DNA of 64,000 bases. Source: Trichosporon coremiiforme. Lineage: Eukaryota > Basidiomycota > Tremellomycetes > Trichosporonales > Trichosporonaceae. Made by a program: the position numbers and the translations under genes. The DNA is taken from NCBI GenBank assembly GCA_039545355.1, contig BCJJ01000001.1:1858570-1922569 (forward strand). The letters are read 5' to 3'. Below, one piece after another: positions 12,228-61,764 of this stretch. The number at the start of each line of letters is the position of its first letter. Position 1 is the first letter of the stretch. The notes under the pieces were generated by a model that saw nothing but the letters and a program-made list of their open reading frames with translations, made no database searches and was not told where the DNA came from.

Positions 12228-12569
12228 GATGTTTCCGACCTGTGAGTAAGTGAGTGAGTGATGTGGAGATGGGGACGTGTTAGCGGTCGCGTCCTTCGAT
12301 CATAGTCATGTCGTCGTTATCGCGGCTGAGTGGCCGAGGTGAGGTCATGCGACCTGTCCCATTCCTCAGCTTGCGTGCCTCGATGCGCCTCAATCTGGAA
12401 CACGCCTGACCGCTATCTCCGGCACACGTTGCGTTGCCCTGTCCGCAAGCCATCAGCAACAACTTCGAGGACATACGTCGGCTGATGAGAGTGAAGCGAC
12501 AGACAGACAGAAAGCAAAAAGAGTGTTTTGGTGTACCCTGACATCAGAAGGCGGCAGTGTAAGGCCAGC
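12228..12569. other. Intergenic: promoter of gene E and 3' flank of U2
   Basis: About 340 bases between the start of gene E and the U2 snRNA 3' end, both on the minus strand. There is a short GTGAGTAAGT-like repeat near 12240. No other feature is supported. Confidence 0.4.
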
Positions 12570-12719
12570 GACATCGTGAGGATGCGTGCAGCAAGCCGCA
12601 GAGGCACCTCGGGCGAGGAAAGATAAAGGGAGATTGAAGCCCCGTGGGGCTATAACATATCTCACTATGTTAAGAACAGATACTACACATGATCTTAGCC
12701 AAAAGAGGCCAGAGAGGAT
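12570..12719 (-). ncRNA. U2: U2 spliceosomal snRNA
   Basis: Reading the minus strand from 12719: ATCCTCTCTGGCC, then CTTTTGGCTAAGATCA, then TGTGTAGTATCTGTTCTT. This is the near-invariant 5' part of U2. The branch-point-pairing GUAGUA lies at 12686-12681. Next comes stem IIa (AACATA ... TATGTT), then stem IIb (AGCCCCACGGGGCT), a pyrimidine-rich linker where the Sm site should be, and a GGTGCC ... GCAC hairpin that would correspond to the 3' stem-loops. The GUAGUA fits the CTGAC/CTAAC branch motifs in the introns of this window. The 5' end is well supported; the 3' end is approximate because the Sm site is not canonical and the last stem-loops are poorly conserved. Confidence 0.88.
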
Positions 12720-13412: not shown

Positions 13413-16400
13413 ATGTCGGTTGACGCTCATCCAGACGCGTCTGGAGCGGCCGTCGCCGGGCCTCGACCGACCACTCCAGAAAACAACAACGCCTCTTCCA
13501 ACATTTCACCCCGTGCGGAGCCACCTCAACCCGGCAGTGCACAGTCACCCCGTACAACCCCAAAGACGAAGAGAAAGCCGAGAGGCAGCGCTGCACCAGC
13601 GACGCCAACGCGAACGTCCCCTAGGAAGGCGGCGCACGCTAGTCAGTCTCAACCTGCGCCTGCGCCGGCTCCTCCTGTCGGTGCGACCTCCACCCCGGCG
13701 GCAGCCGAAATCGCTCAACCATACTGCTTGTACGTCCCAGCCGTGCCACGGTCTTGTTGTTAACCTGTACAGCTACCCTCTCAGCAACAATCCCCACAAA
13801 ACCGATGAGTCTGAACCCGAGCCGATACCTGAAGGCGTGTATGTCTGGCCGGAGGAAGACCCGGAGGCGACCCGCGGCATCCCAATATTCAAGCCATCGA
13901 TGGAGGAGTTCAAGGTATGTGATCTGGAAGGAGGCATCTGACACGGCCAGGACTTCGCCCAGTACATGGAAACAGTCAGACCGTGGGGCGAGCGGTCTAG
14001 CATCGTCAAGATTATCCCACCGCAGGAATGGGTTGATGCAGTGCAGCTCATCGACAAGCGCGCGATGCAAGGGCTCGAGATCCGCAGTCCGATCGAGCAG
14101 CGCATGACGGGACGAAATGGAGTATTTGTTCAACGCAATATCGAACGCAACCGCACTCGGCCGTTGTCAATACACGAGTGGTTCGACAAGTGCTCGCAGA
14201 AGGACTTCTTCACGGCCAGTCCGAAGGAGATCGATAGGACTATGAACCGCGACTCCAAGGAGGTCAAGGAATGGCTCGCGAGGAAGAAGGCCGAGCGTCA
14301 GGAAAAGGCCAAGATCCGGAAACAGAAGCTGGAGGCCGCTGCGGAACGCAAGCGTCAAAGGGAAGCCGAGGCTGCCGCTGCCGCTGCCGCTGCCGCTGCC
14401 GCTGCCGCTGCTGCTGCTGCTGCTGCTGCTGCCAAGGACTCGTCCAACTTCGACGTCCCAACAGAAGCCGCCACTCCGGCACCGGCGCCCTCTGAGAAGA
14501 TGGAAGTTGACGACGTTCCGGCATTGGAACATGACTCGAACACGTCGAAGTCCGAGCAGGAGCCGCTGGCAACGACGCCTCCCGAAACACCAGAGGAGGA
14601 GCCTCTCGACCCGTTCTATGAGGAGACCGACCTCAGCCGAGCTTGGCTTCCGGAGGGCGTCGAACCGGCCGACTACACCGTGACGGGATGCGCTGGAATC
14701 GAGCGCAAGTTTTGGAAGCAGATCGGCATGTCGACGCCCAGCTGGTACGGTGCAGATTTACCAGGGTCCCTGTTCGCCGATCCATCATACCCGTGGAACG
14801 TAGCGAACCTGCCGAACATGCTGAACAAACTGCCTAGGAAGCTACCTGGTGTCAACTCGCCCTACCTTTACTTCGGAATGTGGCGAGCGGCATTCTCATG
14901 GCACGTCGAAGACATGGACCTGTACTCGATCAACTACATTCACTTTGGAGCTCCCAAGTTCTGGTACGCCGTTCCTCAGGCAAAGGCGGAGCGATTCGAG
15001 TCCATCGCCAAGACCTTCTTCCCTACCGATGCCAACCACTGCGACCAGTTCATGCGACACAAATCGTGCACCCTTTCGCCGACAATGCTTCGCGATCACG
15101 GCATCCCCGTGAACAAGCTCGTGCACAACCAGCACGAGTTCGTCATCACCTTCCCGCGTGGCTACCACGCTGGTTTCAACATGGGCTTCAACTGTGCAGA
15201 GAGTGTCAACTTTGCGCTGCCCAACTGGCTGGAACTTGGACGCAAGGCAAAGGCGTGCACATGTGTCAACTTCAGTGTTACTATCGATGTCGACTACCTC
15301 ACCGGAGACCGGCCATTCACACCCGAAAGCAGTGACGATGAAGAGGAGCAAGAGCGAGCTGCCAAGCGTCGGAAGAAAGAGGCGCCGCCGCCACCGCCGC
15401 CATCAGAGGAGCCCGCACCTGTCAAGCTGCCAATCATCCGCATTAAGCGCCCGCAACAGATCGTTCCCTTGACGCCCGAGCCACCGAAGAAGCCGTCTGT
15501 CACCCGCGAGACCCCTAATTATCCGTGCATCCTGTGTCCATCCCTCGTTGCGGATGATCTCGCCCGCGTGTTCGAGCCATCTGAGCACCTTAAATCGATG
15601 ACAATAACGCCTGAGGTCCTGGCGCATTCTTCGTGTGCGGTGGCTATCCCTGAGGCTTACACAGAGGACGTTGAGGCGGATGGTATCATGATCACATATG
15701 TCAAGGGGCTGAATGATATCGGAAAAGACCGATGGAAGCTCAAGTGCTCGGCTTGCATCGATAAGCGAACCGCTCGACGAGGTACCAAGATCCAGTGCAC
15801 AAAGGGCAAATGCCTCCGTGCGTATCACGTCCCTTGTGCGCGTGAAAATCCAGACGTTCACTACTTTGCCGGGGTGAAGTCTGCACCGGCGGCCGAAGGA
15901 GGCACAGTCGCGGAAGGTTCGGAACAGGCAGGAGCTGGGGAGTTCGCAGTCGAACTCCTGTGTCCTACGCACAACCCTTCAATGATTGAAGTGCGTAAGC
16001 AGAGGGCAGAGGAGGCACTGTACCGCAAGGTGCATGCGGTCGAAGGCGGCGGCTTCATCAAGTTCAAGAAGTCCGGTGTGTCCTATGCAGCCGAGCTGCT
16101 GGAAATCAAGGATGAGACGCGTCGCGCGGTCGTGCGACTGCCCGACCTGACGGTCACCGAGGTAGCCTGGAATGCGCTTGATTTCCGATCACATGAGATC
16201 AAAATGCAGGAGAACGAATACGCAGGACCGCCAAAACGCAGTCGAAAGGACGCTCAGGCGACGACGACGGCGACGCCGACGACTCTGCCTGCGTCCCCCG
16301 TGTCTCTTCCCAGGGCTTCTGCCGCACCTTCGGCCGCGCCATCCGCACCGTCGGCACCGTCCGCACCATCCGCACCTGGAGGGGAAACCGAGCCAGCTTC

Positions 16401-18843
16401 CAGGCATTCGGGGTTAGCGACGCCCGTACCGCCTGCGCAGCCGCAAGATCCGCAAGTGACCAAGGAACCTGAGGCGGCCGAGAACAAAGAGGTTACAAAC
16501 CCGCCGTCACCTCATGCACGCTCCGTAGACCCGCATGGCCCTCGGGCGCGGCCATTAGATAGCGAGTACCCCCCAGGTGTCCCTGGTGGTCCGCATGACC
16601 CCCGGCCGTTTCCAGCAGCAGGGACTGCTGTAGCCCCAGCAGCCCCGCTCGCCCCCGGCCGGCTGGGAGGACCGTCTGCCCAATCTGCCCCAGTGGCAGC
16701 TGGGCGTGCGCCTCAATTGCCCTCTTTTGCGCCTCGATATCCGGGTCACTACTATCCGACGGGACCTAGTTTTCCGTGCGCTAATCGAGTGAATATCGTC
16801 GACAGCAGACTCGATTCAGGATTCCCTGGGCATCCTGGGCACGGCTACCCTGGACCTCCACCTGGACCACCTGCGCCGCCTGGCCCTTCTGGCCCCCCTG
16901 CGCACCTGGTGTCTGGCCCCCCTCCGCTTCAGAGCCCTCACCCAGCACACGCTCACCCAGCTCACCCGCCGCCGCCCCCGCCGCACCCAGGTTACCATCC
17001 CAACTACCACCCGCACTCAGCACATAACTGTTACCACCCTCCTCCTGCTCACCACCACCCACCCCCTCCTCCTTATCCTCACCAACACCACCACCATCCC
17101 TTTGCCCACTCTCACCAACCGGGCGGTGGATGGTCTAGGTCAGAATCCGCAGTGCCTCCTCCTCGTCTTCCCCCCCCGCACCTCCCCGCCGCTCACGCCC
17201 ACCCTCCGATTGGCTACCCCACCACGCGTGTATCTTTACCTCCACCTCCGAGACCGACGACGTACGTTCAACACCGTACACAAGGAACCAACCTAGTCCC
17301 ACGCGAGATGACCAACGGTCCCGCTCCTGTCCCCGGCACTGCCGCCAGTCCTACCCACGGCGGGGAATGGATCCCCGACACTGTCGCATCCCGAGCTGCG
17401 GCGCTCGCCCAGGCCAAGGCCGCCCAGCAGGCTGGTGTCGCAGTCCCGACAGGAGTCGGAAAGATCATGCTCGGCACCGACCGCCAACGTATCCTCGGCA
17501 AGTCACTTCCGCCCATCTCCATTCCCGCCATCCATCTGTCTGGAACGAACGGCAAGGGCTCGACGTCGGCGTTGCTCGAGTCTTGTCTCATGGCTGCTGG
17601 ATTGAAAACGGCCAGGTACAATTCACCTCACCTCGTCGAGCCCCGCGACACCTGCCTGTTCGACGGCCAGGTCGTGTCAGCTGAGGAGTACGCCGAGAAC
17701 GTTGCGTTCGTGCAGGCGATCGCCAACAAGGAGCAGCTTCAGTCCACAACCTTCGAGGTGTCGACATGGGCGTTCTACCGCATGTGCATTCTGCGCAAGG
17801 TAGACGTGATGATCGTGGAATGCGGTATCGGAGGTGGCCGAGACGCGACGAATATCCTCCCCAAAGAAATCGTTCTTGCCTCGGGTCTCTCGTCCGTCTC
17901 TCTCGACCACACCGCCATTCTGGGTGACACCATCACCGAGATCACAACTGATAAGGCCCAAATCGCCGTTGAGGGTGGAGTGCTTGTGAGCACCCCGCAT
18001 CAAAACCCTGAAGCGACTGCAAAGGCGAAGGAGGTGTGTGCGGAGAAGGGCGCGCTCTTCGTACAGGCCGAGCAGAGCACAGAAGTCGAGGCACCTGGGC
18101 CTATCGGTCTCTCACCGTTCACACCACCGAAGCCGCCCCTGATCCGCACGCCGCTCAAGGGCAGCCCCGGCGGAGCCATCGAGACGCGATTGCCCCTCCC
18201 AGGCGCCCATCAGCTCGACAACCTGTCCCTCGCCCTCACGATCCTCGACTACATTCGCACTGAGCCGCGTGCGCTCAATATTCAGCCAAAGCTCCGTGGC
18301 CTGACGGATGAGGCCATTCAGAAGGGTGTCGCCACCACGCAGTGGCGCGGCCGCTGCTCGTGGCTTACATTCCGAGGGCCCAAGCGTCCGATTCCCGTTC
18401 TCGTCGACGGTGCCCACAACTTTGACTCCTCGACGACCCTGCAACGGTATATCGACTCTCTGAACCTTCCCGCAGGTGCGCCACGGACGTTTGTGCTGGC
18501 CATGTCAGCCTCGATTGGAAAGAGTCCCGACGGCGTCGTGCGCCCCCTGCTGCAAAAGGGTGACCGCGTCGCCGTGCCGCGCTTCACTGCCCCTGTCGCA
18601 GGCATGCCCTGGATCACGCAGACGGACACGGACAAGGCGCGCGAGACGGTCATGCCTTTCATCGGCGAAGAGGGCGTGTTCTACGAGGCCAAGGGAATGG
18701 GCGCTGAGGGTGTCGCCGACGCTTTGCGCTGGGCCGACGAGCAACAGAAGGAGACAGGGTTCATCGTCCTGTGCGGAAGTCTGTACCTGGTTGCAGACGC
18801 GTACCGCCTCTTGGAGCTCCAGGCGAACGAGTCTTCAGACTAA
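13413..18843 (+). CDS. KDM4/JHDM3-type histone demethylase fused in frame to dihydrofolate synthase
   Basis: Three exons (13413-13729, 13773-13914, 13951-18843) give 1783 residues. The JmjN domain spans about 141-182 (GIPIFKPSMEEFK, WGERSSIVKIIPPQEW). A 21-alanine tract follows. The JmjC domain spans about 448-605, with the iron ligands in FSWHVEDMDLYS and GYHAGFN and the zinc ligands of the KDM4 group (CDQFMRH, CTC). A zinc-knuckle/extended PHD lies at about 677-836. Residues 920-1300 are Pro/His/Ala-rich low complexity. Residues 1325-1783 are a complete folate-synthase fold of the FOL3 type, with P-loop SGTNGKGSTS, YNSPHLVEPRDTC and DGAHNFDS. The first part would remove methyl groups from histone H3 lysines in the nucleus and release formaldehyde; the second would add glutamate to dihydropteroate. 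There is no stop in exon 3, but two adjacent genes remain possible: ATGs at 17308 and 17467 could start a separate synthase. Confidence 0.8.
14371..14433 (+). repeat. GCN repeat coding 21 alanines
   Basis: Alternating GCTGCC units followed by a pure GCT run encode 21 consecutive alanines between the JmjN and JmjC domains of the demethylase. The pure GCT part (14407-14430) is the likely length-variable portion. Confidence 0.9.
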
Positions 18844-61678: not shown

Positions 61679-61764
61679 GGCCACTTAGCTCAGTTGGTTA
61701 GAGCGTATGCTTAACACTTGAAGCGTTACGCATAAGGTCGGCGGTTCGACCCCGCCAGAGGTCA
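61679..61764 (+). tRNA. tRNA-Val(AAC) with a 12-nt intron
   Basis: D arm GCTC/GAGC around AGTTGGTTA at 61688-61704. Anticodon stem TATGC (61706-61710) pairs with GCATA (61730-61734). The loop TTAACA...C gives anticodon AAC with intron 61717-61728 after position 37. Five-base variable loop. T arm GGCGG-TTCGACC-CCGCC at 61740-61756. The acceptor stem 61679-61685 with 61757-61763 has one G-T pair and one A-A mismatch; discriminator A. TTTTT follows at 61766. It lies head-to-head, about 200 bases from the F-box-like gene start. Confidence 0.85.

Follow-up and report, generated by a model that had tools for sequence, protein, structure and literature searches.

A demethylase and a folate synthase in one reading frame

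The window, a 64,000-nucleotide stretch of the Trichosporon coremiiforme genome, raises the question of whether a KDM4-type histone demethylase and a FOL3-type dihydrofolate synthase are made in this fungus as one protein. The initial annotation had placed both in one uninterrupted frame, exon 3 (13951-18843), and this was confirmed by the frame itself and by profile searches. The stop-to-stop frame covers positions 13942-18843 of the forward strand, on which all features described below lie, and corresponds to 1633 amino acids; the product from the ATG at 13413 is predicted, after removal of two introns, to have 1783 amino acids and a mass of 192.3 kDa. In this spliced frame the predicted exon 1, the gene start (13413-13729), includes residues PYCF...NN that match relatives by eye (compared with P0002), and is followed by a predicted GT..AG intron (13730-13772). 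Exon 2 (13773-13914) encodes the beginning of JmjN, according to the profile match, and the predicted intron 2 (13915-13950) has GT..AG borders that recur at the same place in a second copy of the gene. Exon 3 runs without internal stop through the rest of JmjN, the JmjC domain, a PHD-like finger, a putative Tudor-like barrel, a linker and the FOL3 domain to the stop codon.

The JmjN domain (13882-14019, residues 143-176 of the spliced protein) is split by intron 2 and scored 49.7 bits against PF02375 in the spliced protein (cut-off 26) and 19.5 bits in exon 3 alone. With this match above the cut-off, JmjN precedes in the spliced N-terminus a JmjC domain of the KDM4/Rph1 type (14863-15213; Pfam PF02373, E 2.7e-40), and in the PDB comparison the nearest entry to the demethylase part was yeast RPH1 (3opt, E 1.4e-89). 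The HxE..H residues at 14902, 14908 and 15166, found in HVED at 14902 and YHAGFN at 15163, are presumably the Fe ligands of JmjC; across 40 aligned rows the second His is invariant and the first His and the Glu are kept in at least 90%. A PHD-like zinc finger (zf-HC5HC2H, 15616-15852) was identified by profile match (E 4.8e-13). The strands predicted by AlphaFold2 at residues 702-739 (16054-16167), which resemble strands at the start of the relative P0123, are read by us as one Tudor-like barrel, and the basic motif PPKRSRK (16228-16248) may act in nuclear localisation. Like the KDM4/JHDM3 proteins (yeast Rph1 and human KDM4A-D), the protein predicted here has a JmjN-JmjC core with intact putative Fe ligands, and it may share with them a zinc-finger module and a Tudor-like barrel. 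Members of this family demethylate H3K9me3/K36me3, an activity that the predicted protein may have too. It differs from them by its C-terminal folate synthase and by the linker of some 360 residues, predicted to be disordered, that precedes it.

The FolC/FOL3 domain of this synthase, of the dihydrofolate synthase type, lies at 17518-18810. It passes the NCBIfam folC model TIGR01499 (229.7 bits, cut-off 162.65) and matches FolC structures, for the window by sequence only; for the model of the relative P0123 the PDB ranks 1-17 are all FolC/FPGS entries, with TM-scores by target of at most 0.82. With Pfam Mur_ligase_M the window remained below the cut-off of 24 (15.7 bits), as did the Cryptococcus synthase P0146 (21.6). 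The residues GTNGKGS at 17542, which we take to be the P-loop of the synthase, and NSPH are invariant in 35 aligned sequences, the window included. Asn or Lys in the P-loop serves to tell dihydrofolate synthases from polyglutamate synthases, and by this mark the window's domain may be of the former kind; a separate FPGS-like gene pair in the same genome has GTKGKGS. A search of the genome for another FOL3 copy, which the initial annotation had proposed as a check, found none beyond the two joined ones; the further matches were the FPGS-like pair only. The genome search with PF02875 returned no match and is uninformative, because it misses the window's own FOL3 as well. Elsewhere FOL3/FolC proteins mostly have about 430-750 amino acids and no demethylase (most matches), whereas in this genome FOL3 was found only joined to KDM4.

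Evolution of the linker

The two halves are connected by a Pro/Ala/His-rich linker (16225-17307), predicted to be disordered, whose 361 codons include 99 for Pro, 46 for Ala and 32 for His. In dinucleotide shuffles of this segment a given frame was open in 6 of 4000 cases; at least one of the three forward frames was open in 15. The second, diverged copy, on contig C25, is also open over 1650 amino acids. The two copies differ in the linker by seven indels, each with a length divisible by three; of the 27 indels in the flanking non-coding DNA this holds for three (2/19 upstream and 1/8 downstream; Fisher p 2e-5 versus the linker). The 27 leave aside three intron gaps and, within the FOL3 segment, a gap of 20 bases at 18839 that adjoins the stop codon. 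None of the three gaps in the two introns is a multiple of three, and both indels of the demethylase part are. Some linker indels lie in period-3 repeats, where multiples of three are favoured even without selection. The linker has a dN/dS of 0.47 between the window and the second copy; the nonsynonymous/synonymous ratio is 0.56 in its own frame and 1.57 and 1.20 in the other two, which contain 8 and 9 stops. For 17140-17307 alone, seven synonymous and six nonsynonymous changes were counted (p 0.04, a weak test). The comparison of the two copies indicates that the linker evolves as protein.

AlphaFold2 gave low confidence to the linker in both P0123 and the window segment 13951-17307, and no ordered docking of the linker onto either half appeared in these two runs; the overall quality of the 13951-17307 model is poor (mean pLDDT 60), and in the alignment behind it some of the linker had been forced onto FOL3 of relatives.

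The joined domains in related fungi

Among the best 7988 candidates scored, JmjC and the FOL3 marker PF27239 occurred together in 30 of the 71 FOL3-bearing database proteins of fused length, namely 26 named Trichosporonales or Tremellales proteins and four metagenome proteins. JmjC precedes FOL3 in all 30; these relatives keep the joined domains, a check that the initial annotation had proposed. Many of the fused relatives are automatic annotations. Metagenome ORFs apparently read from genomic DNA also span the junction (P0004, P0007, P0028, P0123 and P0124), and in four relatives (P0029, P0030, P0026 and P0015) the stretch of 136 to 213 residues that precedes the synthase P-loop lacks Met, the domain itself not counted. 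A search of viral contigs for DNA of relatives found none.

The linker itself, measured from the ENEY motif to the P-loop, varies from 51 to 436 residues in annotated relatives. Its peptide NRVNIVDSR (16783-16809) contains a motif common to fusions of Trichosporonales and Tremellales. The form [R/N]VV.[V/C]DS, picked after the sequences had been seen, occurs in 20 of 35 linkers, where shuffling predicts 0.07, and in none of 89 unfused KDM4 tails; in this comparison P0014, P0022 and P0241, which lack the anchor motif, were uncut at the start, and the linker of P0006 is tiny. The Trichosporon-like P0001 has a core 90% identical to that of the window and keeps linker peptides up to 17139, including ARAPQLPSFAPRY and the VDSR motif.

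Separate halves in relatives and the FOL3 tree

The initial annotation had named a break between the halves in related genomes as evidence against fusion. Such breaks do exist in part. Cryptococcus deuterogattii and C. depauperatus have the halves as two separate proteins instead of one. A probable further case is C. neoformans, for which a demethylase lacking FOL3 was recorded, and a possible one is P0001, a probable Trichosporon relative without FOL3 part, whose demethylase ORF ends inside the linker, right after the residue matching 17139, by a stop, an intron or the contig end. Linker peptides were found in unfused KDM4 tails of three Cryptococcus only: the Rph1-like tails of C. deuterogattii, C. 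depauperatus and C. neoformans keep a PLRMDEMLNP-type peptide that otherwise occurs only in fused linkers, and these three species look like cases of later splitting.

In the FOL3 tree, 30 fused-type rows (among them the window and the second copy, as well as P0123, P0124, P0241 and P0242, the last four without full demethylase) and six short rows formed one group (100/99). The fused label needs six changes on this tree, at least four of them forced by well-supported branches, and the label 'separate' was given to P0121, P0122, P0152 and P0155 (four of six) by ORF length only. The tree omits five of the Kwoniella sequences, and P0011, a gene model without P-loop, is absent from both tree and motif count. 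The branch that leads to the window's FOL3 is long (0.96). Since C. deuterogattii and C. depauperatus fall inside the fused group, among fused Cryptococcus, their split is read as later. We read the tree as a single join, in an ancestor shared by Trichosporonales and Tremellales, that some Cryptococcus would have undone later.

One protein or two

The fusion reading of the initial annotation is backed by the open frame in both copies, the protein-like evolution of the linker, the shared peptides and 30 proteins from two orders in which the two domains are joined and arranged alike, and no other FOL3 match was detected. The joined frame is probably translated as a single protein of about 192 kDa; the one dihydrofolate synthase detected in the genome would then be attached to a chromatin enzyme.

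The alternative that survives best, which we regard as unlikely, is that two proteins come from the one locus: a demethylase whose tail is disordered, and a stand-alone synthase started at the in-frame ATG 17308-17310 from an internal promoter, the fused protein being minor or absent in the genus. An equivalent Met is present in the second copy and in P0121 and P0122, which are 95-97% identical to the window's synthase and whose ORFs start at that Met. The residues encoded by 17308-17466 are strongly conserved (dN/dS 0.09), and P0001 ends at 17139. This end and the starts of P0121 and P0122 imply that the frame may be broken between 17140 and 17307 in some Trichosporon, and they hint at an intron, a stop or an internal start. 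Against two products, the part of the linker before 17308 shows constraint at the protein level, and its indels between the two copies preserve the frame. Moreover, 14 of 34 linkers have a Met in the 21-residue bin that starts at -74, no excess over the bins from -95 and -116 (17/34 each). An internal start conserved across the clade was not found among Met positions in 35 sequences, although the Trichosporon sequences seen do keep the Met at 17308. The ATTGG at 17209, offered earlier as a promoter hint, did not hold up: CCAAT/ATTGG occurs twice in the 2273-base demethylase part, twice in the 1084-base linker and once in the 1536-base FOL3 part, so that the motif is no commoner there than in coding background.

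Much less probable still is a fused protein from whose linker an intron, either optional or confined to some lineages, takes out a piece near 17139-17300. This intron would start at the one defined point where P0001 ends, with P0121 and P0122 starting downstream, and would fit the widely varying linker lengths of annotated relatives; yet the window and the second copy read through 17139-17300 as conserved protein, and the three GTRNGY donor-like words in 16101-17500 (16706, 16776 and 17262) do not include 17139. That the frame between two adjacent genes is open by chance, and that the joined database entries are products of gene prediction alone, is hardly credible: high GC does lower stop frequency and predictor merges are probable (P0005 also joins a Zn2Cys6 factor, and several FOL3 joins involve unrelated domains), but the shuffles and the frame-specific constraint in the linker led us to reject it, and linker peptides are common to two orders.

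Proposed function and significance

If the single joined protein is made, the folate-making enzyme would likely be tethered to a chromatin-acting enzyme. The JmjN/JmjC part, the zinc finger, the Tudor-like barrel and PPKRSRK would carry the protein to the nucleus and to histones, while the FOL3 half, loose on a long disordered tether, would make dihydrofolate at that site from dihydropteroate, glutamate and ATP, the two active sites acting independently. Fusion would keep a demethylase that releases formaldehyde and an enzyme that makes folate in equal amounts and in the same place. FOL3 makes dihydrofolate, and DHFR is needed before formaldehyde can be trapped. The link between formaldehyde and folate, which the initial annotation had inferred, would therefore be indirect, and formaldehyde capture by reduced folate, which requires DHFR, would be the least certain step.

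We found no description of a JmjC demethylase-FOL3 fusion in the literature, that on Cryptococcus included, as judged mostly by titles and the first lines of abstracts. RNA-seq data have been generated for hybrid Trichosporon (PMC6642101). In PMC8594702 and PMC4406087, which cite Luka 2011 and 2014 for it, another histone demethylase is tied to folate: LSD1 (KDM1A) binds tetrahydrofolate. Around LSD1 it has been discussed whether folate recovers the formaldehyde that histone demethylation releases. LSD1 is a flavin enzyme that binds tetrahydrofolate itself, whereas the window encodes a demethylase of the 2-oxoglutarate type joined in frame to a folate-making enzyme. FOL3 or FolC also shares one annotated protein with another enzyme in Naganishia (HDAC-FOL3), in a chytrid (topoisomerase I-FOL3) and in haloarchaea (FolC-DHPS), but the partners differ, and these joins are known from protein records alone, some of which may be gene-model merges.

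As a distinctly speculative extension, a whole branch of basidiomycete yeasts might make its dihydrofolate on chromatin, with the demethylase bringing the only folate synthase to histones and formaldehyde from demethylation passing directly to the one-carbon pool; Naganishia, a nearby lineage, might have reached the same end through its FOL3-histone deacetylase. The joined frame, present across two orders, makes formaldehyde recovery by folate testable by cutting the tether. If the fusion is real, the nucleus of these fungi would be at least one site of de novo folate synthesis, a pathway that may be an antifungal target, and the separate proteins of some Cryptococcus would descend from an ancestral fusion that was split.

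The joined reading frame and its two halves

A histone-demethylase-type part and a dihydrofolate-synthase-type part in one uninterrupted frame, as the initial annotation proposed, were confirmed by our analysis: a single stop-to-stop frame of 1633 aa covers 13942-18843 (+) with no internal stop. The spliced gene model, starting at ATG 13413 with predicted introns at 13730-13772 and 13915-13950 (+), encodes a predicted product of 1783 aa (192.3 kDa). The 361-codon linker between the two halves (16225-17307) includes 99 Pro codons, and its opening by chance is rare, since 6 out of 4000 dinucleotide shuffles were open in a given frame.

In Pfam searches, exon 3 (13951-18843) matched JmjC at E 2.7e-40 and a PHD-like zinc finger at E 4.8e-13, while the N-terminus of the spliced protein scored 49.7 bits for JmjN against a cut-off of 26. 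The closest PDB relative of the demethylase part is yeast RPH1 (3opt, E 1.4e-89). The final 511 codons resemble FolC/FPGS structures in the PDB comparison (best E 1.1e-24), and the synthase half passes the folC model TIGR01499 (229.7 bits against 162.65). Neither this half nor the stand-alone Cryptococcus synthase P0146 reaches the cut-off of the Pfam Mur ligase model.

Constraint on the linker and gene copies in the genome

Comparison within the genome (42.0 Mb, 134 contigs) revealed a diverged second copy of the fusion gene on contig C25, also open, with a frame of 1650 aa. Between the two copies, dN/dS is 0.006 for JmjC, 0.04 for the FOL3 part and 0.47 for the linker. In a nucleotide alignment, all seven linker indels have lengths divisible by three, compared with 2 of 19 in the upstream and 1 of 8 in the downstream non-coding sequence; some of the linker indels lie in period-3 repeats, which would favour such lengths. 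The nonsynonymous/synonymous ratio of the linker is 0.56 in its own frame and 1.57 and 1.20 in the other two, which contain 8 and 9 stops; the synonymous excess has a Fisher p of 2.7e-5 over the linker but of 0.04 in the final stretch before ATG 17308. An alanine run of 21 codons in the demethylase half (14371-14433) has 7 codons in the second copy.

A query with the FOL3 half returned four loci, the two fused copies and a further pair at 36-38% identity. The members of this pair are copies of one gene (DNA identity of 87% and 82% in the two longest pieces), and one of them, carrying GTKGKGS, reads as FPGS-like; therefore our frame-based search, which can miss a diverged gene, found no stand-alone FOL3 in this genome, a point raised initially. 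The two-copy genome, with its size of 42.0 Mb and its nearest relatives in Trichosporonales, suggests a hybrid Trichosporon or Cutaneotrichosporon species; one study reports three hybrids in the order and a suspected fourth (PMC12820176).

Just upstream of the fusion gene, at 12533-12719 (-), Rfam model RF00004 identifies a gene for U2 spliceosomal RNA with 107.5 bits, and its aligned bases at 12601-12700 are 100% identical in both copies. ARAGORN identified a tRNA-Leu (anticodon taa) at 61679-61764.

Distribution and history of the fusion

Relatives were sought with the FOL3 part of the metagenome ORF P0004, keeping only candidates of fused length. Among the best 7988 candidates scored, 30 of the 71 FOL3-bearing proteins also contain JmjC, always in the order JmjC then FOL3 (30/30). 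Four are metagenome proteins; the remaining 26 carry names, in some cases at genus level. The named ones belong to Trichosporonales (three from Vanrija, four from Cutaneotrichosporon and one from Cryptotrichosporon argae) and Tremellales (12 from Kwoniella, three from Cryptococcus, and others from Naematelia, Kockovaella and one Tremellales isolate), so that the join is kept in related Trichosporonales, where the initial annotation proposed to look, and also in Tremellales. P0004, P0007 and similar ORFs from metagenomes start with what resembles a translated intron and extend through the end of FOL3, which indicates that the frame is probably open in genomic DNA there.

FOL3 also occurs with other partners. 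Three annotated Naganishia proteins (P0243-P0245; Filobasidiales, another order of the class) combine it with a different chromatin partner, a histone deacetylase domain; one annotated protein each in the chytrids Batrachochytrium and Synchytrium (P0250, P0251) combines it with DNA topoisomerase I; and Symbiodinium FOL3 gene models P0257 and P0259, possibly merged, include a SET domain.

Using patterns composed after the sequences had been viewed, we found an NRVNIVDSR-like motif in 20 of 35 linkers, where shuffling predicts 0.07, and in none of 89 unfused KDM4 tails, and a PLRVEQMLNP-like motif in 16 of 35 linkers, all from Tremellales, and in three of the 89 tails, those of Cryptococcus P0032-P0034. 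Fused-type and short Tremellales/Trichosporonales sequences group together in the FOL3 tree (support 100/99), and C. deuterogattii and C. depauperatus fall among the fused Cryptococcus. The fused label requires 6 changes on this tree, implying several losses or gains; because split Cryptococcus demethylases retain a linker peptide, we read the pattern as probably one ancient fusion with later splits. In the window's group (17308-18843 and the C25 copy), the FOL3 half is on a branch as long as 0.96 changes per column; it deviates at several nearly invariant columns, with an intact P-loop.

Relatives gave a mixed answer on whether the two halves stay joined. Cryptococcus includes split demethylases, and the Trichosporon-like demethylase ORF P0001, 90% identical in the core and keeping the linker peptides, ends directly after the residue matching 17139, where there may be a stop codon, the start of an intron or the edge of a contig; synthase ORFs P0121 and P0122 start at the Met matching 17308. 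On the other side stand the joined relatives with their uniform order. No internal Met conserved across the clade was found, and in four relatives Met is absent from the 136 to 213 residues that precede the P-loop outside the domain, so that a stand-alone product is unlikely to be general.

Possible role of the fusion

The frame is joined, under constraint and conserved. The PPKRSRK sequence at 16228 and the biology of the KDM4 family would place the product in the nucleus, where two active sites, probably independent on a tether that AlphaFold2 predicts to be disordered, may supply dihydrofolate near chromatin. Since DHFR has to reduce what FOL3 makes before it could trap formaldehyde, plain shared expression and location of both enzymes is a safer reading than the formaldehyde link suggested initially. 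The tetrahydrofolate-binding demethylase LSD1 is a precedent for a link between demethylation, formaldehyde and folate, and raised H3K4 methylation is reported for mouse liver under folate shortage (PMC8594702, PMC4406087).

No publication on a demethylase-FOL3 join was found in the open-licence literature. The component families are already known and fused sequences are already in databases under demethylase or hypothetical names; the join that these known families make is of clear interest.
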